From a virus: 28,379 nucleotides of DNA. The DNA lies in the IMG/VR virus record IMGVR_UViG_3300027976_000160, positions 1 to 28,379 of that record; one strand, given 5' to 3'. Of the stretch, positions 4,175 to 28,379 are shown in pieces. Position numbers and translations under genes: made by a program. Each line of letters starts with the position of its first letter. Within the stretch, counting starts at the first letter, position 1. The notes beneath the pieces were generated by a model. It searched no databases and was not told where the DNA came from. It saw only the letters and a list, made by a program, of their open reading frames with translations.

Positions 4175-7100
4175 TTAACCTAATTCATTTATATTTTTAT
4201 TAATATCATCGAAACTATTTAAGGTTGTACCTTTACAGAATACTTTATTTAATAAAGTGGTTAAGTCTGGGTTTTTTTGTTCTACGATATTAGTTCCATC
4301 ATTCAAGGTCACAACTAAAGGTTTACTACAATCATAAATTAAGTTGTTAAAATTATCTATTTGTTTTGTTGGTATTGTTGAGTTATTCCATACCTTATAT
4401 TTTGATATCCTAACAAGATTATCTTTTGGATAAGCAAAAGCCCCAACCTCAACTGTTGCCTTTAAAGCTGACTTATAATCAGTCCTTATTAATTCATAAT
4501 TTTGTGTGAATGTTAACTGACCGTTAGTTACATCATCACTCTTTGTTTTTTCGTCTTCCGATGGTTTAGCTTCTTTAATTTTTTCTTTCACTTTTTCTTC
4601 TACTGGGGCTCTTATGTATGAACCGTAATTAAAACTTTCAATATCATCACCATTAAGTTTGGTACCTTTGGGTACGTCAATAGGTCTTCGTTCGTTATAG
4701 ACACTCGTGTTAGCGAAGAAATTAAATGATACAGCGTTTTGTAATTGTGAGATTGGTCCACCTAATGAAGAACCCCCAATAAATTTAAAGTTTAAATCCA
4801 CCTTAGTTAACATTGGTTGTACACCAATACCTTCAGGGTTTAAATCCCATTGTAATGGTTCGTATGAAAAATTCACGGAATCGATAACTATTTTAGTGTG
4901 ATAAAAATCACCAATCCTAAGTACACATATCGGTGGTTTACCGAATGCCATGTTATTTGGCCCATTTTTTATGTTTATACTAGGTCCTTGTCTTGTACAT
5001 TGTTGTAGGAATGTTAACCTGGAATTCATCCCCTCAGGTGTCATTGAATGAAACGCTGGGTGGAAAAATTTAACTTTATCTTTTAGTGAATCATAAACAA
5101 AACTATCCTCAACTTTAAGTTTATTAAAGTATGTCGCTTCATTAACCATTTCTTTAGTTAATTCAGCTGATTTTATTTTAATTGTTTCTTCTCTTCTTTT
5201 CTTTTCTGATATTTTTTTTTTATGAATTTCTTCATTTTCATTTACAGACATTTCTCTCATAAATGCATCAATGTTGGGATTATATATTAAGGTAACGGAA
5301 GCTTTCCTAGCGTTAATAGCTTTAGGGTCATTAATTATCACCTCAATTTCTTCAGGTGTTTCAGTACCATTTAATGGTGTGTTTTGTCCACTACCCCCAA
5401 CTTCACCTTTACCACTTGGTGGTGCCCATCTTAATTGGTTATTAATCCATTCAGCTTCTGTTGGGTATGTTTTTTCACCATCACCATACCTAACCGAAGT
5501 GTCTAGTTCAATGAGTTTATTTTGTAAATAATTTTTTATCGAGGTTGCTCTATCAAGACCTAACACTTTGTTATAACTATTCACATTTAAGGCACTTCTA
5601 TATCCATGTGTTATAATCTGATATCTTTTACCCTCTTCCCCTATTAGGAACTTAGCAATGGTATCTAAATCACTTAAAAATAACGTGTTCTTTGTGTTAC
5701 TACCATTACCATACCCATAACCTGAATCTATATCCGTCTGAATATCTCTACCTGGTTTAGCTGTTGTGTCAGCGTTTTCAAAATAAAAGGTTAATTGTGG
5801 TGTTATAGTTGGTGGTGGACTAAATGGTGTTGGTTTGTTAGATGTATCGGTATTACTATCTTTTTCTACTGAACTTCTACTTACAATTTTACTTGATATA
5901 TCACCAAACGCTGTATTAGTTAATTCACAACCAGCAAAATACCTTTCTAAACTAACTTGTGTTTCTTCTTTAATTACTTCTAAAGCTGATGGACTATCTG
6001 TTAATACTATAAATGAAAGTGTCCCAGTTCTTTCCGTATTATTATAAGTATATATTGGTTCGGCTCTTCCGATGAATTGTGTTGTTTCCCAATTAACACT
6101 TGTATTATCCGTAAAATTTATATCATAAGGTGGGAACCACATAAGTCTACCACCATTTGGACCTCTCTCTATTTTATGTAAAGCGTAAAGTTCATTAGTT
6201 CCTTGCCAAGCTAAGTTTTCAATGGATAACATATATTTGGCTGGGTTATCAACACTCACATAGTCTTCCTTATATGGGACGATTTTTGGCATTCCATTAT
6301 CCTCTAAAATCGATAGAGTTTTAAATACATCAGCTCTTCTTAAACTTTCATGTCTGATTGTGTCTTCTAGTTTACTATACGGGTTCCTAACAGACCATGA
6401 ACGACAATAAACACTATTATCAATCGACTTAACTCTATTACCTTGTGACCATTCTTTGTGTCTATTATTTTTATTTGTGTCTATATTGTTGTCACTATTT
6501 GCCTTACCAATATACCTACCAGCTGAATTATCCTCACCACCATCATTAATTAAATTTTGTGTAAATTTTAATAAACCCCTTTTAGTTGTGTTATTACCAT
6601 TATTTGGTTTCCAAAGTAATGTATTTTTATCAGATGTTAATTCAGGTTCAGTATTATTTGGTTGTATTGTTTTAAATCTAGTACTATATTGGGGTGTTAT
6701 ACCAGGTTTATTAAACTCATCATCATTCTTATATTCACTACCATATGTACCATCCCCCATGTTATACCCTAAGTTACCATTAACTGTTGGGTCGATTAAT
6801 ATACTTGGTTTTATAGACTCAGTGGGTATTGTTGGTTCTTTTTGTTTATTAATTAACCCATCAATTAATTTTTTAACACCCGAATTTAATTTATCAACTA
6901 AGGGTTTCTCTCGTTCTGTTTGTTCTTCAATATCTGTTATTATTGGGTCAGTATATGAAATTGTTGTTGGTTGGTCACCAGCCCCACTAAATCCATCAAT
7001 AATGTCATTGATAACATTACTAACTTTACTTATAAATTTACCTACCTTTGTTTTTGGTTCTGTAGCTGTTTCACCCTTACCAAATTTTGGCCCCCATTTA

Positions 7101-8208: not shown

Positions 8209-11133
8209 TTAGGTTCTATCATCTTCTAATTTTTCAGAAATTAGGTTTTTAAGTTCTCTAATAAATATCGGGTCACTTAACCAATCTGTCGATGTCTTAC
8301 CACCACCTTCACCAGAAAGTGAAATATCACCTTTTAAATTCATATCTGAAAATTCAACTCGTATTGGTTTACCTGTTGAACTAGCGGTAACCAATTCTTT
8401 TAACATTGATAATTTATCTTTGTCTAAATTGTTTATACCTTCTAATGATGAACTAAAATTGGCTTTTTCCATCACGACAGCCGTACCACTTAGTAAACTA
8501 GTTAAAACGGTTAGGATACCAAGTGCTGGTAATAGAGCTAATGATGAAACGGATAAAGCCAACATAGAAAGAGTTAATATACCTAAACCAACACCCATAG
8601 CTATAAACCCAACACCTATTTTTATTAAATTATCACCATCAACAACTGAAAACATAGTGGTAAATGCACCAATAATAGAAGCTATACCTTCACCAGCTAA
8701 TTTTAAACCATACCCGAACCCGATAAAGGCAAGTGATAATGCAGCTAATACAGCAACACCTAACCAACCAACAGTACCAGCTGTAGCCCCAAATGCTACT
8801 AAACCTTGACCTAAAAGTGTTAAACCAGTACCAGCGGCACCACCAAGTAAAGCAATACCACCTAACCCAATTAGACCAGCTGTCATCCCAATAAAAGCAA
8901 CTGAAGCTAATAATAAGTTAAGTGCTCCAAATGAAACAAGTGGTGTTCCCATTGCTGTTAAACCCCTACCTAAAGCACTTAAACTTTTAAATACTGAGTT
9001 ACCTGAACTTAAATACATCATAGTTGGTATTGCTGGTATCAGGGTGATTAAACCAACTGAAGCTAATAATAAGTTAAGTGCTCCAAATGAAACAAGTGGT
9101 GTTCCCATTGCTGTTAAACCCCTACCTAAAGCACTTAAACTTTTAAATACTGAGTTACCTGAACTTAAATACATCATAGTTGGTATTGCTGGTACCATAG
9201 CTATTAAACCAATAGATGCTGGTATTAGGTTAAGTGCACCGAAGAGTACTTTTCCTGTCCCCATAGCTGTTAACCCTTTAGATAGATTTGTTAATGATTT
9301 ACCAGTGTCACCACCTTTTTTTGGTGTTGTTGGTGTTTTTGGTGTTTTTGGTGTTGTTGGTGTTTTTGGTGTTTTTGGTGTTGTTGGTGTTGTTGGTGTT
9401 TGTTTATTAGGGGTTTGGATTTTTGAACTTTCATTACTTAGTGGGTTACTCGTTTCAGGGGATACCTTCTTTTTAAATGGGTTTAATTTACCCAACCCCT
9501 CTTTAACTGAACCTGAATCAAAACCCTTTCTTAACTGAACACCACTATACACCCATTTAGCTGCGTTGAATAAAGCTGCCCCACCTAATACTAAAGCACC
9601 TATAAGAGTTTTAAGTGAATTTGGCATATTGGATACCACATCAACAATACTAGTAATTAATGGTTTAACGATATTAAGAAATGGTAATAAAAATTCGGCA
9701 GCTAAAGCTTTTAATTGATTTTGTAACCCTTTAAATGATTCATCAAATGTTTGACTTTGTTCAGCTAAAACCTTGTTAGATTCTTTAGCTTCCTGCATTT
9801 CTTTAACCATGTTACTATTCATATCTTGTAAAGCTCGTGTTTGGGTTACACCGTCTTTATCCATAAACTGTATTTGAGCTACACCTTTTTCACTAAATTC
9901 AGCCATACCAGATAGTAATTCTTTATCTTTAGGTGACATTGACCCTAACATATCACCAAACATATCTATTTTAGCTGTCTGTTTAGCTGTCTCAACCAAC
10001 TCTTCAAAAGGCATCCCTAAAGCTGATGCAGCTTCTCTCATCCTATCAAGTTCAAGGGCATTCATATCCCAACTTTGTGTTTCAGCATTCCATTCAGCTG
10101 AAGAAGACACCGCTTTAGATAATGATTTAGCTAATTCCTCAGGTGCGTACCTAGCTTGATACATTAATTGAAACGGGTCACCAAGTTGTGATAATGAGCC
10201 ACCTAACATTTGTAGATTTGCGGCAGCTTCAATAGCACCTTCGGGTCTAAACACCTTCTCAGATACAGACGCAACTGACTCCATACTAATTTTATATTTT
10301 TCTGAATAAGCAGCCATACTAGCCATACCTTTCACACCACCCTTAAATTCTAACTTATTTAATAACTTTAAATTTTGTTGGAATTTCTTTACAACCTTAC
10401 CAGCGTTAACACCTTGTGCGGCCGCAATATCCCTAACATCTCTGACAACCTCTAATGACTTTTCAGCTCCCATACCAAAAGCCTCCATTTCACCTGTTAA
10501 TGTAGACATCTCACCAACTGTCATATTTAAGGCTCTAGATAATTCAACAGTTGTCCTTAACGCTTGACCACTAAGTAAAGATGCCCTACCCGTTTCATTA
10601 GCGTAGGCACCTTGTGCTTCAACTAACTGTTCAGTTGTGACATTAAGTCCCTCTGCCACCATTGAGGCATCAGACATGTTACTTCTAAGTACCGCCATCT
10701 GATTAGCTCCTAGACCCATTGAAGCTGACGTACTTCTGATAGCTTTATCAACAGTTTGAGACTTTTCGTATATACTTGAAAAACTTGGTATTAATTTTGA
10801 TTTTAATTCATTACCAACAGCTCGTAAACCTTGTAATATTCCAGTTGTACTTTTATTTATTGCCCTTAATTGTTCAGCTTGTTTTCTATAATCAGCTATA
10901 CTGTTTAGACGTTGTTTTTCTTCGTCACTCCCTATTTTATATTTTTGTTTTTCTAAATCAACTATTTCGGATTCAAGAGCCTTAAGTAATTTAGTGTTTT
11001 CTAAAAGTTGTTTTTTTGATTCAATATAACTAGATAATCCTTTACGATTTCTTTCTTGTGCATCAGCTATTTGATTTTGTATCTTTAAATACTCTAACGC
11101 GGATTTTTTATCACTACCGAAATTTTCTGACAT
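8209..11133 (-). CDS. Tail tape measure protein
   Basis: A 974-residue protein. Residues 1-125 are charged and helix-forming (a likely coiled coil). Residues about 135-400 are alanine-rich helices of the tape-measure type (for example SRALNMTVGEMSTLTGEMEA). A hydrophobic stretch around 490-530 is followed by a Thr/Pro/Lys linker of TPTTPK-like units around 580-605, and then a long glycine-rich hydrophobic region (610-900) with tandem 52-residue units. Tape measure proteins fix tail length, and at about 1.5 angstrom per residue this one would suit a tail of roughly 140-150 nm, longer than that of T4 (gp29, 590 residues). The start is 2 bases after the stop of the upstream 561-residue gene. Position between gp26-like and baseplate genes fits. 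Confidence 0.9.
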   Translation of the reverse strand: MSENFGSDKKSALEYLKIQNQIADAQERNRKGLSSYIESKKQLLENTKLLKALESEIVDLEKQKYKIGSDEEKQRLNSIADYRKQAEQLRAINKSTTGILQGLRAVGNELKSKLIPSFSSIYEKSQTVDKAIRSTSASMGLGANQMAVLRSNMSDASMVAEGLNVTTEQLVEAQGAYANETGRASLLSGQALRTTVELSRALNMTVGEMSTLTGEMEAFGMGAEKSLEVVRDVRDIAAAQGVNAGKVVKKFQQNLKLLNKLEFKGGVKGMASMAAYSEKYKISMESVASVSEKVFRPEGAIEAAANLQMLGGSLSQLGDPFQLMYQARYAPEELAKSLSKAVSSSAEWNAETQSWDMNALELDRMREAASALGMPFEELVETAKQTAKIDMFGDMLGSMSPKDKELLSGMAEFSEKGVAQIQFMDKDGVTQTRALQDMNSNMVKEMQEAKESNKVLAEQSQTFDESFKGLQNQLKALAAEFLLPFLNIVKPLITSIVDVVSNMPNSLKTLIGALVLGGAALFNAAKWVYSGVQLRKGFDSGSVKEGLGKLNPFKKKVSPETSNPLSNESSKIQTPNKQTPTTPTTPKTPKTPTTPKTPKTPTTPKKGGDTGKSLTNLSKGLTAMGTGKVLFGALNLIPASIGLIAMVPAIPTMMYLSSGNSVFKSLSALGRGLTAMGTPLVSFGALNLLLASVGLITLIPAIPTMMYLSSGNSVFKSLSALGRGLTAMGTPLVSFGALNLLLASVAFIGMTAGLIGLGGIALLGGAAGTGLTLLGQGLVAFGATAGTVGWLGVAVLAALSLAFIGFGYGLKLAGEGIASIIGAFTTMFSVVDGDNLIKIGVGFIAMGVGLGILTLSMLALSVSSLALLPALGILTVLTSLLSGTAVVMEKANFSSSLEGINNLDKDKLSMLKELVTASSTGKPIRVEFSDMNLKGDISLSGEGGGKTSTDWLSDPIFIRELKNLISEKLEDDRT
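8898..9194 (-). repeat. Tandem duplication inside the tape measure gene
   Basis: Bases 8898-9038 and 9054-9194 appear identical over 141 bases with a period of 156 bases, which is 52 codons. The repeated protein unit contains GRGLTAMGTPLVSFGALNLL and PAIPTMMYLSSGNSVFKSLS. A more diverged third unit lies at about 9195-9290 (GLTAMGTGKVLFGALNLIPA). Exact identity of the first two units at the DNA level indicates a very recent in-frame duplication. Confidence 0.95.
9321..9401 (-). repeat. 9-base tandem repeats coding a Thr/Pro/Lys linker
   Basis: On the plus strand GGTGTT units alternate with GTT and TTT in a 9-base period; on the coding strand they give TPTTPK and TPKTPK units. The tract joins the helical N-terminal part of the tape measure to its hydrophobic C-terminal part. 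Such short repeats expand and contract easily by slippage, always in frame here. Confidence 0.85.
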
Positions 11134-12856: not shown

Positions 12857-13793
12857 TTAACGACGACCTTTATTGGCTTTATCATTTTGTTTTTTACGTT
12901 CCTCTAATTCTTTTTGCCAATAGTCAAGATAAAGTCTCCTTTCATATATGGGCATTATTTGAATAGACTCATAAGAAAATCTCATATGTTTAACCAAATA
13001 ATAAATTTCTTGTGTTAGATTTAACTTATATTCCGGCGTTAGGCCAAAAAAAGTTGAGTCCAATTTGAACTGTAACGGGAAACGTTTCACCAGATGGACC
13101 CTCCACTTCCACCTCCATGTCAATACCAGGTTCAATAGAATCAGAATATTCCCTGAATTTTAATGAATCGAAAGCTGGCATAAACTGTAGATATTGTGAT
13201 ATGTAACTTTTATCTTGATTACCATCTATTGATATAATCTGTGCTTCCAATCTATATGTTAACGTATTTGAAATCTGTGATTTAAATTTTTTGTCACGTA
13301 TTTCAGATTGTTTAATAATTGACGATTCATCACCAACGGTTAGTAATTTAAATTTAATTTTTTTCTTACTTCTAGGTAATTCAAAATCGAAAAGACCATT
13401 TTCATCAGGTTCAGCACCTAATGGTTTTGTTTTTAAATCATTTAAATCAACATCATACTCAAATTCTTCACCAGTATTTGGGTCCATTAATTTAACTGGG
13501 TACATTTCACCATAACCAGTTGCCCTTAACCAAATCATAATAGCGTTTCTATCACCTACTAATAAATTACCGATAGGCATTGGTAAATCTTTTATTTTTC
13601 GTTCAAGTAATACATCTAAAACTTTCCCATTCTTGATTAAGTTAGGTGATGTTAGTATATTTTCATCAGCAGCTGTTAAGTATTGTACTTTAACTGTGTT
13701 ATTTTTACCTGGATATAATAATCCTTTAGAAGGTATTTCGATTACATCGAAAGGTACTTCAAATTCTGTTTGTTGATTGTTTTCAGTAGACAT
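12857..13793 (-). CDS. Frameshift-extended form of the gp26-like tail-assembly protein (predicted)
   Basis: The reading frame at 13045-12857 (62 codons plus stop, containing LTQEIYYLVKHMRFSYESIQ and MPIYERRLYLDYWQKELEER) has no ATG or good start at its beginning. The only start upstream in that frame is a TTG inside the gp26-like gene, and the overlapping part translates to arginine/tryptophan-rich nonsense. The two frames meet at a run of seven T on the coding strand (plus 13046-13052), where the main frame reads AAC TTT TTT TGG. A +1 slip, or a -2 slip, joins NFF to GLTPEYKLN and gives a protein of about 311-312 residues. Tail-assembly chaperone genes upstream of tape measure genes commonly use such frameshifts, and in T4 genes 26 and 51 are adjacent here. 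A sequencing error in the T run, or reinitiation at an internal ATG, are the alternatives. Confidence 0.6.
13026..13793 (-). CDS. gp26-like tail/baseplate assembly protein (zero-frame product)
   Basis: A 255-residue protein. The N-terminal half has the layout of the T4 gp26 family (T4_baseplate): FDVIEIPSKGLLYPGKNNTV, then VQYLTAADENILTSPNLIKN, then LLVGDRNAIMIWLRATGYGE and a MDPNTGEEFEYDVDLNDL segment. The family is known from baseplate hub assembly in T4 and probably acts as a chaperone or assembly factor around the tape measure. The start ATG is at 13793 after an (ATT)n-rich leader. The zero-frame product ends NFFWPNAGI just after the seven-T run. It stands between tail tube and tape measure, as expected for tail-assembly chaperones. 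The family call is from motif pattern, not from a search. Confidence 0.72.
   Translation of the reverse strand: MSTENNQQTEFEVPFDVIEIPSKGLLYPGKNNTVKVQYLTAADENILTSPNLIKNGKVLDVLLERKIKDLPMPIGNLLVGDRNAIMIWLRATGYGEMYPVKLMDPNTGEEFEYDVDLNDLKTKPLGAEPDENGLFDFELPRSKKKIKFKLLTVGDESSIIKQSEIRDKKFKSQISNTLTYRLEAQIISIDGNQDKSYISQYLQFMPAFDSLKFREYSDSIEPGIDMEVEVEGPSGETFPVTVQIGLNFFWPNAGI
13046..13052 (-). other. Candidate frameshift slip site (seven T on the coding strand)
   Basis: The coding strand reads AAC TTT TTT TGG in the gp26-like frame, only six codons before its stop at 13026. The run allows realignment of TTT-decoding tRNA by +1 or -2. It is the only long homopolymer in the overlap between the two frames. 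Confidence 0.5.
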
Positions 13794-13949: not shown

Positions 13950-15731
13950 ATGAATTTACAATACTTCCTAGAGAATAAAAATGGGTCTAGATTAAAACCG
14001 AAATCATTAAAAAAGGAGAACATAACATTATATAATAACATATTAGAATATAATGTAGGTAATGGTTTTAATGATTTACCGTTTAATGAACAAGTGTGGT
14101 TCTACATTAATAGGTGTGACACAAAACCCGAATGTGGTGTGTGTGGTGGGGAAACAAAGTTTGAACGAGTGAGTACTGGGTATCGTAGTTATTGTTCTGT
14201 TAAATGTAAATCCATATCTAAAACAGTAAAAGATAAAACAATAAACACATTTAATGAGAAATATGGTGGACACCCAATGAAAAACGATACCATTAAAGAT
14301 AAAATAAAGAAAACTAACATGGATAGATATGGTCATGAATCTCATTTAAGTTCTGAAATCATAAAATCTAAAATAGAATCAACCAACCTAATTAAATATG
14401 GTGTTAAACGACCATTAGAATCAAAAACCATCCAAGATAAAAGTCGTAACACTATGATTGATAGACATGGTGTTGAACATGGTTTACAATCAGATGATAT
14501 ACACAAAAAAACCACAGAGTCATTAATAAAGAATAATGATTGGGGTGTTTTTTATGGTAAAATACAGGACACTAAGAAATTGTTATATGGTGATAAAAAC
14601 TATAATAACACGGAGAAAAATAAAGAAACGTGTTTAGAGAAATATGGTGTTAATAGTGTCTTAAAAAACCCTGACATACGAAATAGAATCGGTGATACAA
14701 AATTGAGGGGCAGTGTCAGTGGATATAGGTTTGGTGGTAATATAGAAATTGTTTCACATGACAGTGACACATGTTGTGTTTATTGTAAAGTGTGTGGTAT
14801 GGAAACTGAGACACCGAGACATTTTATGGTGATGAGGGGTTATAGGGGAAACAACATGTGTCTCGAATGTAACCCTAAAGGTAAATTTAATTCAGAAAAT
14901 GGGTTAACACATTTTATTACTGAGGAATATGTTCAGAACGATAGAACTGTATTAGATGGGTTAGAGATTGACATCTTAATACCTAACAAAAAAATGGGTA
15001 TAGAGTATGATGGTGTTTATTGGCACAATGAACTATATGTGGATAAAAAATATCACCTAAATAAAACCGAATTAGCTAAACAAAAGGGGTATGATTTAAT
15101 ACACGTATTCGAGGATGAATGGGTTAATAAGGAACCTATTGTTAAATCTATCATTAACAATAGGTTAGGTAATACACTTGATAGGGTTTATGGTAGGAAA
15201 TGTGTCATTAAAGAAATTAACCCTAATGTGGCAAAACAATTTCTAATAGATAACCACATACAAGGGAACGTTAATTCTAAAATTAAATTAGGTCTGTATC
15301 ATGTTAATGAGTTGGTATCGGTTATGACCTTTGGTGGTAATAGGGTAGCTTTAGGTTCTAAAAATAGGGAAGGTGAATGGGAAATGTTACGATTTTGTAA
15401 TAAACTGAATACCTCGGTTATTGGTGGTGCATCAAAATTATTCAAGTACTTCATTAAAACATATGAACCACAAAAAATAACAACATACGCTGATAGACGA
15501 TACTTTAATGGTGGATTATATGAAAATTTGGGTTTTATGTTCTTAACAAACACTACCCCAAACTACCACTACGTAATTAATGGTAAAAGACACCACAGGT
15601 ATAAATTTAGAAAAGATGTTTTGGTTTCGGATGGTTATGATAAAAATAAAACGGAACACCAAATCATGTTAGAACGTAAGATATACAGAATATACGATTG
15701 TGGTAATAGTAAATGGGAATGGGTTATTTAG
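13950..15731 (+). CDS. Homing-endonuclease-like protein 1 (PD-(D/E)XK nuclease fold)
   Basis: A 593-residue protein. Residues about 50-90 hold a Cys-rich finger (CGVCGGETKF, then YCSVKCKS). About 100-250 contain repeated helix units ending in KYG or RYG/RHG (NEKYGGHPM, MDRYGHESH, LIKYGVKRP, IDRHGVEHG, LEKYGVNSV), of the kind seen in modular DNA-binding parts of phage homing endonucleases. A second finger follows (CCVYCKVCG, then CLECNP). The nuclease core is at 339-400: IDILIPNKKMGIEYDGVYWH with D341 and E352, then LIHVFEDEW, as in Vsr-like PD-(D/E)XK nucleases. The C-terminal 190 residues (GLYHVNELVSVMTFGG, FCNKLNTSVIGGASKLFKYF) are shared with the second copy at 17650. It stands alone on the plus strand between minus-strand tail genes, typical of a free-standing homing gene. 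Confidence 0.8.
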   Translation: MNLQYFLENKNGSRLKPKSLKKENITLYNNILEYNVGNGFNDLPFNEQVWFYINRCDTKPECGVCGGETKFERVSTGYRSYCSVKCKSISKTVKDKTINTFNEKYGGHPMKNDTIKDKIKKTNMDRYGHESHLSSEIIKSKIESTNLIKYGVKRPLESKTIQDKSRNTMIDRHGVEHGLQSDDIHKKTTESLIKNNDWGVFYGKIQDTKKLLYGDKNYNNTEKNKETCLEKYGVNSVLKNPDIRNRIGDTKLRGSVSGYRFGGNIEIVSHDSDTCCVYCKVCGMETETPRHFMVMRGYRGNNMCLECNPKGKFNSENGLTHFITEEYVQNDRTVLDGLEIDILIPNKKMGIEYDGVYWHNELYVDKKYHLNKTELAKQKGYDLIHVFEDEWVNKEPIVKSIINNRLGNTLDRVYGRKCVIKEINPNVAKQFLIDNHIQGNVNSKIKLGLYHVNELVSVMTFGGNRVALGSKNREGEWEMLRFCNKLNTSVIGGASKLFKYFIKTYEPQKITTYADRRYFNGGLYENLGFMFLTNTTPNYHYVINGKRHHRYKFRKDVLVSDGYDKNKTEHQIMLERKIYRIYDCGNSKWEWVI

Positions 15732-17085: not shown

Positions 17086-17574
17086 TTAAAATACGTGAAT
17101 TGCTCTATCAAATCTAAGTGAAGCTGTGATATCAGCGATATCCTCAGAACTATAATCAAGGTCACCAAATCCTACATTACCTAACATAGTACTTTGTAAA
17201 ATCCATTTCTCAATTACAACACCTGTTGGGTCTAAAAGTTCTAACTCAACGTCTTTTTTATAACCAGCTGCATATCCTTGTCTACCCGTTACAGATTCAG
17301 AATGTAATCTTACCCACTCCATTAAGGCTTGTGCTGCTGAAGGTCCAATAGGGTCTCTAAAAGTTACATCTATCGGGTCCCAAGTAAATCTTCCCAATAC
17401 CCATGTTGATGTGTTTAGGAACGGTATTTCCGTTTCACCCTGAGATATTGATGGTCTAGAACCTGAAGATACGAACCATTCCTGAATCCCAAGTGGGGAA
17501 GGGAATCTGAATATAAATCTATTCTTTTTCTTTGGTTCGTAAGGAATAGGCATTCGCATTAATAAATCTGACAT
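17086..17574 (-). CDS. Tail tube protein (gp19 family)
   Basis: A 162-residue protein, nearly the same length as T4 gp19 (163). Characteristic segments are an N-terminal MRMPIPYEPKKKNRFIFRFP, the strand IQEWFVSSGSRPSI, FTWDPIDVTFRDPIGPSAAQ, and the C-terminal half with KKDVELELLDPTGVVIEKW and FGDLDYSSEDIADITASLRF. Hexameric rings of this protein form the inner tube enclosed by the sheath. The gene is separated from the sheath gene by about 6.5 kb of small and accessory genes, whereas in T4 the two are adjacent. No host-type promoter was seen upstream; the AT-rich 75-base gap is shared with the divergent endonuclease gene 2. Confidence 0.9.
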   Translation of the reverse strand: MSDLLMRMPIPYEPKKKNRFIFRFPSPLGIQEWFVSSGSRPSISQGETEIPFLNTSTWVLGRFTWDPIDVTFRDPIGPSAAQALMEWVRLHSESVTGRQGYAAGYKKDVELELLDPTGVVIEKWILQSTMLGNVGFGDLDYSSEDIADITASLRFDRAIHVF

Positions 17575-17649: not shown

Positions 17650-19254
17650 ATGGAAAAAAAAATTAATATCCACACATTTTTTATTACTGACAATAAGTCG
17701 GGGTGGAAAACACGTGCTGATAGATTAAAAAAAAAAGAACCAAAATTATATAATGATGTTTTAGAGTTTACTAAAGGTGACCAACTAATGTACCTACCAT
17801 TTAAGGTTAGAGTGTGGCATTTCATACATAATGAACCCAACATACCAAAATGTCCACAATGTGATGTGGAATTAAAATTTAAAAGAAGTATATCAGAAGG
17901 GTATGGTAAATATTGTTCAATTAATTGTACAAACAAACACGGGGACCACGTTAATCAAGTTAGGGATAAGTGGAGGGTAAACGAAGTGGAGATATTATCT
18001 AAAATAAAAAAAACAAATCAAGAAAGGTATGGTGTAGATAACACATGGAAACGTTTAGATATGGTGGCTGATGGTTTTATTCGGAATCATGGGGTTAACC
18101 ACGTATCAAAAGTCGATGGTGTTTTAGAACGTAGAGGGGAAACAAATATTAAGTTACGTGGTTATCTAAATAACCTATCTGACCCATTAATTTTGGATAA
18201 ATCGTTTAAGGTTAGACGAGATGAATTTCTTCATAAATATGAAAATCACACTTTTATAACACACACTGGTAACACATTATCAATATTGTGTAATGTGGTT
18301 GGACACACTTATGAAATTAATAGGACACTATTTAGGTATCGTAATGGGGTTAATGTAAACCCGTGTACCAAATGTAACCCAGTAGATGATTCGGTATCAA
18401 TACAAGAAAAAGAGTTACAAGATTTTGTATTAACATTAGTTGATGAAATTAAATGTAACGATAGGGAAACAATAAAACCAAAAGAGTTAGATATTTTAAT
18501 ACATGAATATAACTTAGCTATTGAATTTAATGGGTTATTTTGGCATTCCGAAAAATTTATTCCAAGTGATTACCACATAAATAAAACAATGGATTGTGAA
18601 AGTTTGGGTATTGATTTAATTCATGTGTTTGAAGATGAGTGGGTTAATAATAAAGACATAGTTAAATCCATAATACAAAATAGGTTAGGTTTAAGTACTA
18701 ACACCATTTACGCTAGAAAAACCGTGATAAAAGAAATTAGTGGTAAGGATTATAAAAATTTTTGTAATAATAACCATATACAGGGTCATGTTAATGCTAG
18801 TGTGAAACTTGGTTTGTATTGTAGTGATGTGTTAGTGTCTGTAATGAGTTTTGGTGGGTTAAGGCGGTCATTAGGGTCACACAGTAAAAAAGGTTCGTTC
18901 GAGATGTTACGTTTCTGTAATAAATTAAACACAAACATAGTTGGAGGTGCTTCCAAACTATTCAAGTATTTTATTAAAACATATAATCCAAATGAGATAA
19001 TATCCTTTTCAGATAATAGATATTTTAATGGGGGTTTATATGAACAATTAGGTTTTAGGTATGAGAAAAAAACAACACCTAACTATTACTACATAACAGA
19101 TAAATTAAAACGTGAAAATAGATTCAAATACCGTAAAGATGTGTTAGTTAAGTGTGGGTATGATTCAAATAAGACTGAACGACAAATAATGGTGGATAGA
19201 GGTATTAATCGTATATATGACTGTGGAAATAAGAAATGGGTTTGGTTGTCTTAA
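17650..19254 (+). CDS. Homing-endonuclease-like protein 2, paralogue of the protein at 13950
   Basis: A 534-residue protein with the same layout as protein 1 but fewer DNA-binding repeats. There is a first Cys finger (CPQCDVELKF, then YCSINCTNKHG), two or three YG/HG helix units (QERYGVDNTW, IRNHGVNHV), and a second Cys pair (CTKCNP). The nuclease core is ELDILIHEYNLAIEFNGLFW with D281 and E292, followed by LIHVFEDEWVNNKDIVKSII. The C-terminal 190 residues (IQGHVNASVKLGLYCSDVLV, RFCNKLNTNIVGGASKLFKY) are highly similar to protein 1. The N-terminal parts differ, as expected if the two recognise different DNA sites. It lies divergent to the tail tube gene; an ATATTTATTA copy at 17591-17600 lies 49 bases before its ATG. 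Confidence 0.8.
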   Translation: MEKKINIHTFFITDNKSGWKTRADRLKKKEPKLYNDVLEFTKGDQLMYLPFKVRVWHFIHNEPNIPKCPQCDVELKFKRSISEGYGKYCSINCTNKHGDHVNQVRDKWRVNEVEILSKIKKTNQERYGVDNTWKRLDMVADGFIRNHGVNHVSKVDGVLERRGETNIKLRGYLNNLSDPLILDKSFKVRRDEFLHKYENHTFITHTGNTLSILCNVVGHTYEINRTLFRYRNGVNVNPCTKCNPVDDSVSIQEKELQDFVLTLVDEIKCNDRETIKPKELDILIHEYNLAIEFNGLFWHSEKFIPSDYHINKTMDCESLGIDLIHVFEDEWVNNKDIVKSIIQNRLGLSTNTIYARKTVIKEISGKDYKNFCNNNHIQGHVNASVKLGLYCSDVLVSVMSFGGLRRSLGSHSKKGSFEMLRFCNKLNTNIVGGASKLFKYFIKTYNPNEIISFSDNRYFNGGLYEQLGFRYEKKTTPNYYYITDKLKRENRFKYRKDVLVKCGYDSNKTERQIMVDRGINRIYDCGNKKWVWLS

Positions 19255-19346: not shown

Positions 19347-20036
19347 ATGAATAACGAATTTAATCATTACGCAAAAAAACATTTAGGAATCCACGATTCA
19401 ATCATCCATGGGTATCAAAGTTTAAGAGCTGAACTACCTATGGTAATTGAGGCGTCAGTAACCCCAACCATTATTGAGGAGAGAAAATTAAATGTGGTAG
19501 CTATGTCAGTTTTTGACCGATTAATGATGGATAGAATATTGTGGGTAGCTGGACCAGTCGATGACAGAATGTCAATCATCGTTCAAGCTCAGTTACTTTT
19601 CTTGTCCGACCAAGACCCTAAAAAGGCGATAACAATGCATATTGACTCACCAGGTGGTTCAGTTAAAGCTGGGTTATCAATGGTAGATAGTATGGAATTA
19701 TGTAAAGCACCTATTCAAACAATCAACACGGGGATGGCGGCATCCATGGGTTCTGTATTGTTAGGAGCTGGAACTAAGGGGATGAGAAGTTCGTTAAGAC
19801 ACTCACGAACGATGTTACACCAATCTAGTGGTGGTGTTCAGGGTAATATTCAAGATGCTGAAATCACATGGAAGGAATGGAAAAAAGTTAATAAGGAATT
19901 ATTTGTTTTATTAGGTGAGTATTCAGGTAAGTCTTGGGAAGAGGTTGCTAATGACGCTTCAAGAGATTTATGGTTAAACGCTGAGGAAGCCGTTACTTAT
20001 GGAATTATCGATGAAGTGATTAGACCAACAAAGTAA
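19347..20036 (+). CDS. ClpP-type serine protease
   Basis: A 229-residue S14-family protease. The catalytic triad is intact: S133 in GMAASMGSVL, H158 in RTMLHQSSGG and D207 in SRDLWLNAEEAV. The oxyanion/strand motif MHIDSPGGSVKAGL precedes the serine, and the C-terminus TYGIIDEVI is as in bacterial ClpP. ClpP forms barrels that cut unfolded proteins delivered by Clp ATPases; no such ATPase is in this window. Phages also use ClpP-like enzymes as prohead proteases, but this gene lies away from any visible capsid gene, on the plus strand, with a host-type promoter, which points to expression separate from late virion genes. It ends at a strong terminator shared with the convergent small gene. Confidence 0.9.
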   Translation: MNNEFNHYAKKHLGIHDSIIHGYQSLRAELPMVIEASVTPTIIEERKLNVVAMSVFDRLMMDRILWVAGPVDDRMSIIVQAQLLFLSDQDPKKAITMHIDSPGGSVKAGLSMVDSMELCKAPIQTINTGMAASMGSVLLGAGTKGMRSSLRHSRTMLHQSSGGVQGNIQDAEITWKEWKKVNKELFVLLGEYSGKSWEEVANDASRDLWLNAEEAVTYGIIDEVIRPTK

Positions 20037-22487: not shown

Positions 22488-23402
22488 TTATGAAGCCATA
22501 CCAACGTTACCACCTGAACCTTGACCACTGTATTGTGTAGAGTCAACAAAATATCCTTGTGAACCATCAGGAGCGGTTGCATTAACATCCCATGTTTGGT
22601 AAGCTGTACCAGGGTTATAACCTAAGAATATTAAAAATTTTGTTTTTTGTTCCTTACTTTTTAAAGAATTATGAACTTTTATTTTACTTGGGTTTTTCTT
22701 TGCGAATTCAATTCCTTTTTCACGAGCTTCTTCATCACTTTTAGGTTTTCTACTAAATATACCTTCTGCCATACCAGCGTTACCACCTGAACCTTGACCA
22801 CTGTATTGTGTAGAGTCAACAAAATATCCTTGTGAACCATCAGGAGCGGTTGCATTAACATCCCATGTTTGGTAAGCTGTACCAGGGTTATAACCTAAGA
22901 ATATTAAAAATTTTGTTTTTTGTTCCTTACTTTTTAGCAGATTATGAACTTTTATTTTACTTGGGTTTTTCTTTGCGAATTCAATTCCTTTTTCACGAGC
23001 TTCTTCATCACTTTTAGGTTTTCTACTAAATATACCTTCTTCTAAGTTTTCAGATACCGAACCACTTATATGTTTTTTAACATCTCTAGGTTGTGTCTTT
23101 TTTTCTTTTTTACTACCTGGGTTAACTTCACTAGCTTTTGGTGTGTTTTGTCTTTCATCTACCATGTCACCACTTACAGAACCACTTACATGTTTCTTAG
23201 CTTCAGCTGAATGTTTCTTTGCGTCATTACGACCAAAATCCTTCTTAGGTGGTGTTCCACCACTATTAGGTCTTTTTTCAACCATAACTCCACCTTCGGA
23301 ACCATTTAAGTGTTTTGTTGCTTCAGAAGCTGCAGCTTCTGTTACGAAGTTTTCAACCAACTTCTCAACTTGTTCTTTTGTTACTTTGTATCTTGTTGCC
23401 AT
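22488..23402 (-). CDS. Putative virion protein with two near-identical 91-residue repeats
   Basis: A 304-residue protein of unrecognised family. The N-terminal part has three short motifs in series: KHLNGSEGGVMVEKR, KHVSGSVSGDMVDER and KHISGSVSENLEEG. The C-terminal two thirds are two tandem units, each EGIFSRKPKSDEEAREKGIE, then IKVHN(S/L)LKSKEQKTKFLI, then NPGTAYQTWDVNATAPDGSQ and a G/S-rich tail. Each unit reads as a helix followed by strands around FLGYNPGTAYQTWDV, plausibly a small globular domain. The gene lies 12 bases after the calcium-loop gene and two genes from the sheath gene, so a virion or virion-assembly role is likely. The start MATRYKVTKEQVEKL is helix-forming like other starts in this group. 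Confidence 0.7.
   Translation of the reverse strand: MATRYKVTKEQVEKLVENFVTEAAASEATKHLNGSEGGVMVEKRPNSGGTPPKKDFGRNDAKKHSAEAKKHVSGSVSGDMVDERQNTPKASEVNPGSKKEKKTQPRDVKKHISGSVSENLEEGIFSRKPKSDEEAREKGIEFAKKNPSKIKVHNLLKSKEQKTKFLIFLGYNPGTAYQTWDVNATAPDGSQGYFVDSTQYSGQGSGGNAGMAEGIFSRKPKSDEEAREKGIEFAKKNPSKIKVHNSLKSKEQKTKFLIFLGYNPGTAYQTWDVNATAPDGSQGYFVDSTQYSGQGSGGNVGMAS
22495..23040 (-). repeat. Tandem 273-base duplication, about 98% identical
   Basis: Units 22495-22767 and 22768-23040 are the same length (91 codons) and differ at about five bases. Four differences are clustered in two adjacent codons (Ser-Leu versus Leu-Leu), and one makes Val versus Ala near the unit end. The duplication is in frame and recent. 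Confidence 0.95.
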
Positions 23403-26980: not shown

Positions 26981-27133
26981 ATGAAAAGGATAAAAAACTT
27001 GAAAATAACACCAGCAACACATACGATTTTAAAAAAATATTGTGAAGAAAATGGGTTAAAGATGTTCGCTTTTGTTGAAAAGTTGATTAGGGACAAATGT
27101 ATTGACCCCAAAGATATCTATAATGAGGATTAA
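26981..27133 (+). CDS. Small ribbon-helix-helix (Arc/MetJ-type) DNA-binding candidate
   Basis: A 50-residue protein. The layout is a basic strand (MKRIKNLKIT), a first helix (PATHTILKKYCEENG), a turn (LKM) and a second helix (FAFVEKLIRDKC), then a short acidic tail. This matches the length and order of the ribbon-helix-helix fold, whose dimers bind short inverted repeats through the strand. A perfect inverted repeat lies 50 bases upstream, so it could regulate itself and the divergent sheath gene. Its last 4 bases overlap the end of the convergent patatin-like gene. The fold call is from pattern only. Confidence 0.6.
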   Translation: MKRIKNLKITPATHTILKKYCEENGLKMFAFVEKLIRDKCIDPKDIYNED

Positions 27134-28089
27134 CTGTTTAGTCCGATAGTACCATCAAATATTAGTTTAGGTTTACGTCTACCAATTAATTCATATGATT
27201 TATAGAATTGTGATTTAGCTGATTCAAAACCTTCTTCCCACCATTCGGTCATTGTATCTTTATTGAAGATTAATGCATTGTTGGTTAATTTTCTAGGTGT
27301 ATAATAAAAGTTAATCTTAACATCACCTTTTAATTCCGCTTTTAGATTAGCTAAACGAATGTCGTCACGAGATATTTCATTCATCATTAAATCCAACGAA
27401 CGAAGTAAATAATGAAATGGGTTTCTAATTCTTTCAGGTGTTAATGAAGAAAATTCTTTTTTTAATACAATAACATCAATATCGGTTGCTCCTCTATTAA
27501 TAGCCTCTTGTAGTGGAATACTTTCTAAAATACCACCATCTGCATAATCGTAACCACCCTTAGTGACAGGTTCCATAAACGGGGGTACTGTCGATGAAGC
27601 CAACATCCAATCACCAAAATCATTCCAACCATAATTATTAATTGATTTGTATTCGGTTTGTGCTAAAGTCATATTAGTAACACAGGATAAAACTTCTTTA
27701 TTAGATGACTTTATGATTTCAAAATCACGTTCAGTCATGAATTCATTAATTAAATTCCTTAGGTTAGATGCGTCACCAAAAGCGTTTTTCCTTCTGAACA
27801 CAACATTATATAACACATTAAGATAGTCAATACCAATTTTAGTTGACCCATTAACATCTTTTTTAATTTTAAATGGATTAATCTTAAATATTTTTTCTTG
27901 TGTCACATTTGTATATGCTTCCTTTAATTTATCTAATTCTTTTATAGCCAAAAAGGGAACCAATAAACTTCCAGTTGAAGTACCAATAAATAAATCATAG
28001 TCTCTGTGTTGTTCCTCAATAAGGTATTGTGCGACACCACCACCGAATGCCCCTTTACTACCACCACCTGAAACTACTAATGCTTTCAT
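27130..28089 (-). CDS. Patatin-like phospholipase
   Basis: A 319-residue protein from the ATG at 28089; the frame is open further upstream, but that part overlaps the preceding gene and is not needed. All patatin features are present: the oxyanion loop GGGSKGAFGG at 8-17, the nucleophile elbow GTSTG with S38, and the catalytic Asp in YADGG at D184. The DWMLASSTVPPF segment before it is typical of the family. Patatins are lipid acyl hydrolases with a Ser-Asp dyad. There is no signal peptide, so the enzyme would act in the cytoplasm on the inner membrane or in the virion. The start is 1 base after the stop of the upstream gene, so they form an operon. A role in lysis, membrane damage or entry is possible. 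Confidence 0.88.
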   Translation of the reverse strand: MKALVVSGGGSKGAFGGGVAQYLIEEQHRDYDLFIGTSTGSLLVPFLAIKELDKLKEAYTNVTQEKIFKINPFKIKKDVNGSTKIGIDYLNVLYNVVFRRKNAFGDASNLRNLINEFMTERDFEIIKSSNKEVLSCVTNMTLAQTEYKSINNYGWNDFGDWMLASSTVPPFMEPVTKGGYDYADGGILESIPLQEAINRGATDIDVIVLKKEFSSLTPERIRNPFHYLLRSLDLMMNEISRDDIRLANLKAELKGDVKINFYYTPRKLTNNALIFNKDTMTEWWEEGFESAKSQFYKSYELIGRRKPKLIFDGTIGLNS

Positions 28090-28090
28090 A

Positions 28091-28379
28091 TTAACCCTCG
28101 GTATTTGTAATCTCCATGTATGATATTGATAAATCAATTGCGTTAGCGTTACCACTATTGGATTGTATGTAATCGTTATTATCTAAGGTAAAGGTCCCAT
28201 CTAAAGCTTGGAAACTAGAACCTTGTGGGATTGTCACATTAAAAGCCATATGAAAAGTTTCAGTTGCTGACGTATCAACCCATGATAAATTAAATGATGT
28301 ATCAGCACTAAATACATTAGTGGCGTGTATTGTCTTTATCAAGTGTTTTGTTGTGGTTGTGTGAATTGATGTTAGTCCA
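28091..28379 (-). CDS. C-terminal part of an unidentified (probably structural) protein
   Basis: The frame is open to the right edge of the window, giving 95 visible residues with the N-terminus outside. The visible part is Ser/Thr/Asn-rich and strand-forming (VFSADTSFNLSWVDTSATET, FQALDGTFTLDNNDYIQSNS) and ends YMEITNTEG. It looks like a small beta-sandwich, as in virion surface or fibre-associated proteins, but no family was recognised. A TTG at 28342 is not a needed start because the frame continues upstream of it. It lies 1 base upstream of the patatin-like gene and is probably co-transcribed with it. Confidence 0.6.
   Translation of the reverse strand, partial: GLTSIHTTTTKHLIKTIHATNVFSADTSFNLSWVDTSATETFHMAFNVTIPQGSSFQALDGTFTLDNNDYIQSNSGNANAIDLSISYMEITNTEG

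Follow-up and report, generated by a model that had tools for sequence, protein, structure and literature searches.

A predicted +1 ribosomal frameshift between gp26-like and gp51-type domains in a tail assembly chaperone gene of T4-related phages

Introduction

The window analysed here, i.e. the whole stretch of 28,379 bases, is a virus record with a contractile tail operon on the minus strand. Near the 3' end of a gp26-like gene of this operon is a run of seven Ts, and a second open frame of 62 codons continues from that run. How is the second frame translated? A sequence-only reading of this DNA had proposed a programmed frameshift, and had suggested that gp26/gp51-type proteins are the chaperone pair of T4-like tails.

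Tail assembly chaperones are made with -1, -2 or +1 shifts in different phages (PMC5009743). According to the literature, lambda gpG/gpGT resembles the present locus in that one gene, which adjoins the tape measure gene, has a short form and a frameshifted long form. The lambda shift, however, is -1 at another slippery site, and the proteins have no detectable sequence relation to those studied here. Phage Mu (-2) and the haloarchaeal myovirus HSTV-2 (probably +1) also have tail genes with a shift other than -1, but these belong to other protein families, and the Mu shift differs in being -2 (PMC5009743).

In the T4-like phages, gp26 and gp51 are listed among the hub assembly chaperones (PMC3004832). 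According to the papers that cite their work (PMC10885494 and PMC12846349), Vladimirov, Gautam and Davidson (2022, Virology 566:9-15) recognised which genes of T4-like phages encode the chaperones, and described T4 26/51 as a two-gene solution. Poly-T signals for a -1 shift are known in T4-like TAC-N genes (PMC12846349). As far as these accounts go, gp26/gp51 as a short/long chaperone pair and -1 shifts in T4-like phages are already published. No description of a +1 shift in the gp26/gp51 family was found in a literature search that reached few of the subscription papers. Within that search, the +1 direction across a far-T4 clade, its UUU-pyrimidine site and a selected GGGG(U) motif in three sub-clades (not that of the window) were not found described.

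Methods

Thirty-two IMG/VR loci with 37-100% identity were retrieved. Together with further scans and annotated phages, the set of relatives comprised 225 loci, which are numbered here with the prefix L, and the extension was located with an extension profile. For three clades, namely the window-like one, the immuto-like one and the TTT TTT TAC group, pN/pS was counted over the 25 codons that precede the site and the 45 that follow it. A tree was built from 57 short forms.

Results and discussion

Frame arrangement at the T run

The gp26-like gene ends in frame 0 with ...GGA CTC AAC TTT TTT TGG CCT AAC GCC GGA ATA TAA (Table 1). Past the T run, the +1 frame reads GGC CTA ACG CCG GAA TAT AAG... 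and stays open for 62 codons. The first frame was said to end just after the seven-T run and the second to continue there, and this description stands as written. The second frame was also said to lack a start of its own except a TTG buried in the first gene; TTG at 13135, within the gp26-like gene, is indeed its sole listed start. The chance of 62 open codons in one given frame is about 0.004 with the base composition of the window, and the openness of the frame by itself is only moderately telling.

Table 1. Positions of the chaperone locus and of tail operon genes in the window
Feature	Position	Strand	Description
Short form, gp26-like tail assembly chaperone (TAC-N)	13026..13793	-	255 aa, ATG start, TAA stop 13028-13026; PF12322, phrog_150
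Putative slip site, seven T	13046..13052	-	frame 0 TTT TTT T (UUU UUU UGG); unchanged in 14/14 distinct clade sequences
Extension (TAC-C), +1 frame	12857..13045	-	62 codons + stop (12859-12857), GLTPEYKLNLTQEIYYLVKHMRFSYESIQIMPIYERR...; phrog_634, pN/pS
Predicted long form (TAC-NC), about 310 aa	12857..13793	-	+1 frameshift product put together from its parts, junction NFFGLTPEYK
C at -4 from the T run (third base of codon -2)	13056..13056	-	candidate for a clade-specific cis element
Sheath	26844-24076	-	PF04984 and PF17482, both below cut-off
Tail tube gene, upstream of the chaperone gene	17086..17574	-	phrog_4542, E 2.6e-25
Probable tape measure gene, downstream	8209..11133	-	974 aa; length, repeats, position

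All the IMG/VR relatives of the first set of 32 loci that extend beyond the gene end share the frame relation of the window. In the larger set, the extension could be placed in 222 of the 225 loci; it is in the +1 frame in 212 of them and in frame +2 (equivalent to -1) in 10. Because these relatives share ancestry, they do not count as independent samples, and percentages or binomial values make the evidence look stronger than it is. Seven of the ten loci belong to cyanophages or other classical T4-like phages and one, L039, to a huge phage; in the remaining two (L141 and L147), the extension is a separate gene. The 222 placeable loci are thus divided into 212 with +1, eight with -1 and two with a separate ATG-started gene. 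Three loci missed by the extension profile (L048, L050 and L051) show an open -1 frame by eye. A lambda-type -1 heptamer (X XXY YYZ) does not describe the site, the extension being +1 in the window and in those 212 relatives. Separate ATG genes in related phages had been named as evidence against a frameshift, and among the 222 placeable loci they are confined to the two above.

The same +1 relation is found in the isolate genomes MW353176, PP395634, KT624200, OQ999172 and PQ819873, several of them without a homopolymer. The IMG/VR contig L001 is identical to the window over 6,765 bases and may or may not be an independent sample. A search of bacterial genomes gave two relatives only, L232 (+1) and L233 (-1).

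Indel errors are frequent in homopolymers, and a single assembly or sequencing error in the T run, or a decayed gene, would also give two overlapping frames. However, about 200 distinct sequences share this relation, and they come from many metagenomes and from isolate genomes; pN/pS is also low on either side of the slip site, as described below. The probability of an error or of decay is negligible. Since the relatives keep the same frame relation, the arrangement is real, and both chance and an assembly error can be dismissed as its cause.

Change of the selected frame at the site

Before the site, the pN/pS values of frame 0 are 0.42, 0.23 and 0.32 in the window-like clade, the immuto-like clade and the TTT TTT TAC group, respectively, and those of the +1 frame are 1.18, 1.64 and 1.39. 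After the site, the +1 frame shows 0.44, 0.29 and 0.34, and frame 0 shows 1.44, 1.78 and 1.45, in the same order; all these values are descriptive and are not tests, as the sequence pairs share ancestry. For the extension in the window clade, the value of 0.44 in the +1 frame compares with 1.44 and 1.07 in the other two frames. Low pN/pS moves from frame 0 to the +1 frame at the site, which indicates that the coding frame changes there. The values before the site also agree with the earlier claim that the second frame is not translated in the overlap.

The extension might instead be a separate small protein, made by ribosomes that re-initiate beyond the gp26 stop; several records annotate it in this way (P-SSM2 gp51 and immuto 6833-6943). 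An internal ATG is present in the extension of the window, the extension of L141 and L147 starts with an ATG preceded by an in-frame stop, and a TAATG overlap occurs in L039 and L051. On the other hand, selection in the +1 frame starts at the slip site, and the residues preceding the first Met are conserved. Eight of the 189 distinct +1 extensions contain no Met at all, and a Met occurs within the first 15 residues in only 24. Re-initiation also leaves the conservation of the UUU-pyrimidine site (see below) without a reason, and in T4 gp51 the extension is fused to a gp26-like domain. Re-initiation is thus a highly unlikely source of the extension.

Slip codon and probable direction of the shift

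UUU followed by U or C is present inside the open overlap in all 189 distinct +1 sequences; some additionally have CUU followed by U. In the gene bodies of these relatives, UUU makes up 77% of the Phe codons. The sites in relatives include TTC TTT TGG, TTT CTT TGG, TTT CTA TTC and TTC TTT CGT. The clade of the window has exactly seven Ts in 14 of 14 distinct sequences. Across the wider +1 set, seven or six Ts are present in 138/189, and the longest T run is four or shorter in 50/189. Homologous loci had been proposed as a check on the overlap and the T run. The +1 relation of the two frames is kept in 212/222 and the T run throughout the window clade; in the wider set it is the UUU-pyrimidine that is kept (189/189) and not a run above four.

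The sequence-only reading left the direction undecided between +1 and -2. When tRNA-Phe moves one base forward, it re-pairs in all 189 sequences. A -2 ribosomal frameshift, as documented for the tail genes of phage Mu (PMC5009743), would reach the same frame with one extra Phe (NFFFGLTPEYK). The seven-T run permits re-pairing two bases back, and the window sequence taken alone allows -2 as well as +1, as is the case for 138/189 relatives. However, in the other 51/189, which have the same frame relation (e.g. TTC TTT TGG), tRNA-Phe cannot re-pair at -2. The +1 shift fits all 189, and a single mechanism for the clade is simpler; a -2 shift is improbable.

The T run also raises the case of RNA polymerase slipping on it, which would give mRNA lacking one U and require no ribosomal shift. 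The 138 relatives with seven or six Ts would be suitable for this, but runs of at most four Ts (50/189) are too short for slippage to be expected. Moreover, the conserved feature is UUU at the P-site and not the length of the run, and the upstream GGGG(U) motif described below better suits a ribosomal effect. Polymerase slippage is therefore very improbable. Since 51/189 fail re-pairing at -2 and 50/189 have no T run above four, the mechanism is likely +1 ribosomal slippage. The earlier proposal of a programmed frameshift is thus borne out by the conserved frame relation, the selection switch at the run and the invariant slip codon, with +1 favoured and -2 disfavoured.

In E. coli, UUU-pyrimidine is reportedly a context prone to shift, according to Schwartz and Curran in 1997 for UUU-pyrimidine sites and Fu and Parker in 1994 for argI. 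In yopN, UUU-UGG was proposed as a +1 site, yet its mutation did not abolish the hybrid protein (PMC3789692). The UUU-pyrimidine motif alone is therefore not proof of a +1 shift.

Upstream elements and RNA structure

In three sub-clades other than that of the window, GGG is used for the Gly located three codons ahead of the first Phe in 46/69, 18/20 and 33/37 sequences, whereas the share of GGG in the gene bodies of these sub-clades is 8-9%. As a control, GGG was found in 12/182, 2/132 and 5/124 cases at three other conserved Gly positions. Together with the initial G of the next codon, GGG forms GGGG(U) at about -9 to -5 from the slip site. Because only frame 0 is translated upstream of the slip, this codon bias indicates selection on the nucleotides. 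We infer that GGGG(U) may stimulate slippage in the three sub-clades. The clade of the window has GGA at this Gly codon, and the motif is absent. In this clade, C at -4 is present in 14/14 sequences, whereas C occupies 9% of the third codon positions in the gene bodies.

The bacterial RF2 (prfB) +1 site is AGGGGGU AUC UUU GA. In both cases the P-site tRNA moves by one base onto UUU, for the chaperone genes as predicted here, and a G-rich, SD-like stretch lies upstream in three sub-clades of the chaperone family. Unlike RF2, the chaperone site has no stop codon in the A-site, and GGGG(U) is located about two bases further upstream and is absent in the clade of the window.

Downstream RNA structure gave no consistent signal in 22 relatives; for the window sequence alone, z is -1.5 over 191 nt. 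A candidate helix GGGUCC/GGACUC upstream in the window was rejected, as the clade of the window gives it no support.

Relation to T4 gp26 and gp51

The short form matches PF12322 (T4_baseplate) with E 4.7e-10 and 40 bits against a curated cut-off of 24.5, and phrog_150 with E 1.7e-10. For the extension, the match is to phrog_634, 'baseplate hub assembly catalyst' (E 4.9e-4). T4 gp51 (249 aa) matches phrog_150 over its length (E 2.6e-84) and phrog_634 at its C-terminus (E 1.2e-23), and is matched to gp26 by blastp (E 2e-6). According to these three matches, T4 gp51 is a gp26 paralogue plus the extension, i.e. the long form as a separate gene. The short form of the window is homologous to T4 gp26 (PF12322), and the extension to the C-terminal domain of gp51. 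The +1 and -1 extension profiles match each other (E 7.5e-9), and a match to the end of T4 gp51 was obtained with the -1 profile (E 7.4e-5). Comparison of the +1 short-form profile with T4 gp26 or gp51 singly by hhalign is weak, so the link to the T4 pair rests on PF12322, phrog_150 and the PHROG of the extension.

The window and T4 are alike in that the short form belongs to PF12322 and the long form has the same C-terminal domain. They differ in that T4 has two separate, divergent genes, whereas the window has one gene and a predicted frameshift. The extension had been said to occupy the position of T4 gene 51, adjacent to gene 26. Its relation to gp51 is confirmed, but gp51 is a full-length long form and not a bare extension, and the two T4 genes are divergent. 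The suggestion that gp26/gp51-type proteins are the chaperone pair of T4-like tails agrees with the membership of the extension in the gp51 family and with the composition of T4 gp51, although the idea was already in print.

The AF2 model of the short form has a mean pLDDT of 91.4 and matches many viral 'baseplate hub' proteins. On realignment, its best PDB match is the HK97 tail assembly chaperone 2ob9, with Z 5.2 over 77/104 residues at 3.2 Å. This weak match does not exclude chance, as unrelated models typically reach a best Z of 7-8; by Foldseek, the match to 2ob9 has E 2.8. A link to contractile injection systems via Pfam DUF6760 (E 0.12 for the extension) was also considered and was rejected, as there was no family match in two related phages and two bacterial genomes.

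Proposed two forms of the chaperone

The locus very probably has a single gene from which a +1 slip yields a short and a long T4-type tail assembly chaperone, a pair of the lambda G/GT type. Most ribosomes would end at TAA and give the gp26-like short form. Some would slip by +1 within UUU UUU U, with tRNA-Phe on UUU and U as the next base, and would read the 62 further codons, which add a gp51-type C-terminal domain in the long form. If lambda gpG/gpGT is taken as a guide, the tape measure protein may be coated by many copies of the short form and few of the long one, and the extension may recruit tube subunits. The occurrence of the slip, its efficiency and the chaperone activity are what we infer from the sequence comparisons.

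On this reading, a large sequence-defined family would be added to the few +1 frameshift sites known in phages. It would also give independent support for reading T4 gp26 and gp51 as the short and long forms of a tail assembly chaperone; both have long been called hub assembly chaperones, with an unclear function. Flavobacterium phage immuto, Bacillus phage SP-15 and LIS04 are isolates available for studying the site.

Evolution of the three modes

In the tree of 57 short forms, in which the root is not known and the placement of long branches is unsure, a well supported split separates the -1 users and T4 gp26/gp51 from the +1 users. The +1 side also holds two separate-gene cases and, on long branches, the -1 cases L039 and L233. 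At least four changes of mode are required on the tree.

The -1 loci of cyanophages and other T4-like phages (T TTT TTC) have the same two domains as the window, with the junction at the same Phe-Phe near the gp26 end. They differ in the -1 shift and in their separate branch of the gp26 tree. The deep +1 branch includes contractile-tailed phages of Flavobacterium, Microcystis, Bacillus, Listeria and Streptococcus, some huge phages and many uncultured ones. We consider it somewhat more likely than not that this deep T4-like branch uses +1 at UUU-pyrimidine, aided by an RF2-like GGGG(U) in some sub-clades, that its sister branch shifts by -1 at this Phe-Phe junction, and that gene duplication took the place of recoding in T4. 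If true, this would be an undescribed case in which one recoding event switches direction and is dispensed with in one gene family. The same pair would be made in at least three ways (+1, -1 and two genes), which suggests selection for the two forms and not for the route.

L141 and L147 lie within the +1 clade, and their extension is a gene of its own with an ATG and a stop upstream in its frame; recoding seems to have been lost in this lineage. In L050 and L051 (Ackermannviridae SFP10 and Vibrio phage K445), the gp26 gene is followed by an open -1 frame; its sequence is gp51-like, but the T TTT TTC heptamer is missing. A Deltaproteobacteria MAG contig (L233, 2965-3893) carries a gp26-like gene with a -1 extension beside tube and tape measure-like genes, and this locus is either a prophage or an injection system.

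Several hundred phage records mis-annotate or miss the gene at this locus. Public records annotate the extension as a small gene from an arbitrary start, or omit it (L033 6833-6943, L034 6758-6994, L043 3723-3896 and L045 3801-3896).

Tail operon of the window

The gene order in the window is tube, inserted nuclease and peptidase genes, chaperone, a 561-aa ORF and the probable tape measure gene. L033, L036 and L038 show sheath, tube, chaperone and tail/tape measure gene in succession, and the last three are interrupted by one small ORF at most. The placement of the locus between tail tube and tape measure, as first read, is thus found in the window, with inserted genes, and in these three relatives. 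The 974-aa ORF had no family match in Pfam and PHROG profile searches. It contains a 156-base repeat (2.2 copies, 93%) at 8894-9237 and a short 9/27-base repeat array at 9318-9401.

Between tube and chaperone, on the strand opposite to the tail operon, are two related ORFs of 593 and 534 aa (13950-15731 and 17650-19254, plus strand). They show DUF7487, MTES_1575-type nuclease and Mom-like matches, and are probably mobile nuclease genes. A 273-base tandem duplication, 98% identical, is located at 22495-23040 within a 304-aa ORF (22488-23402). Beside the tail genes, the phage encodes a ClpP-like protease (19347-20036, E 1.2e-57) and a patatin-like phospholipase (27130-28155, E 5.7e-23).
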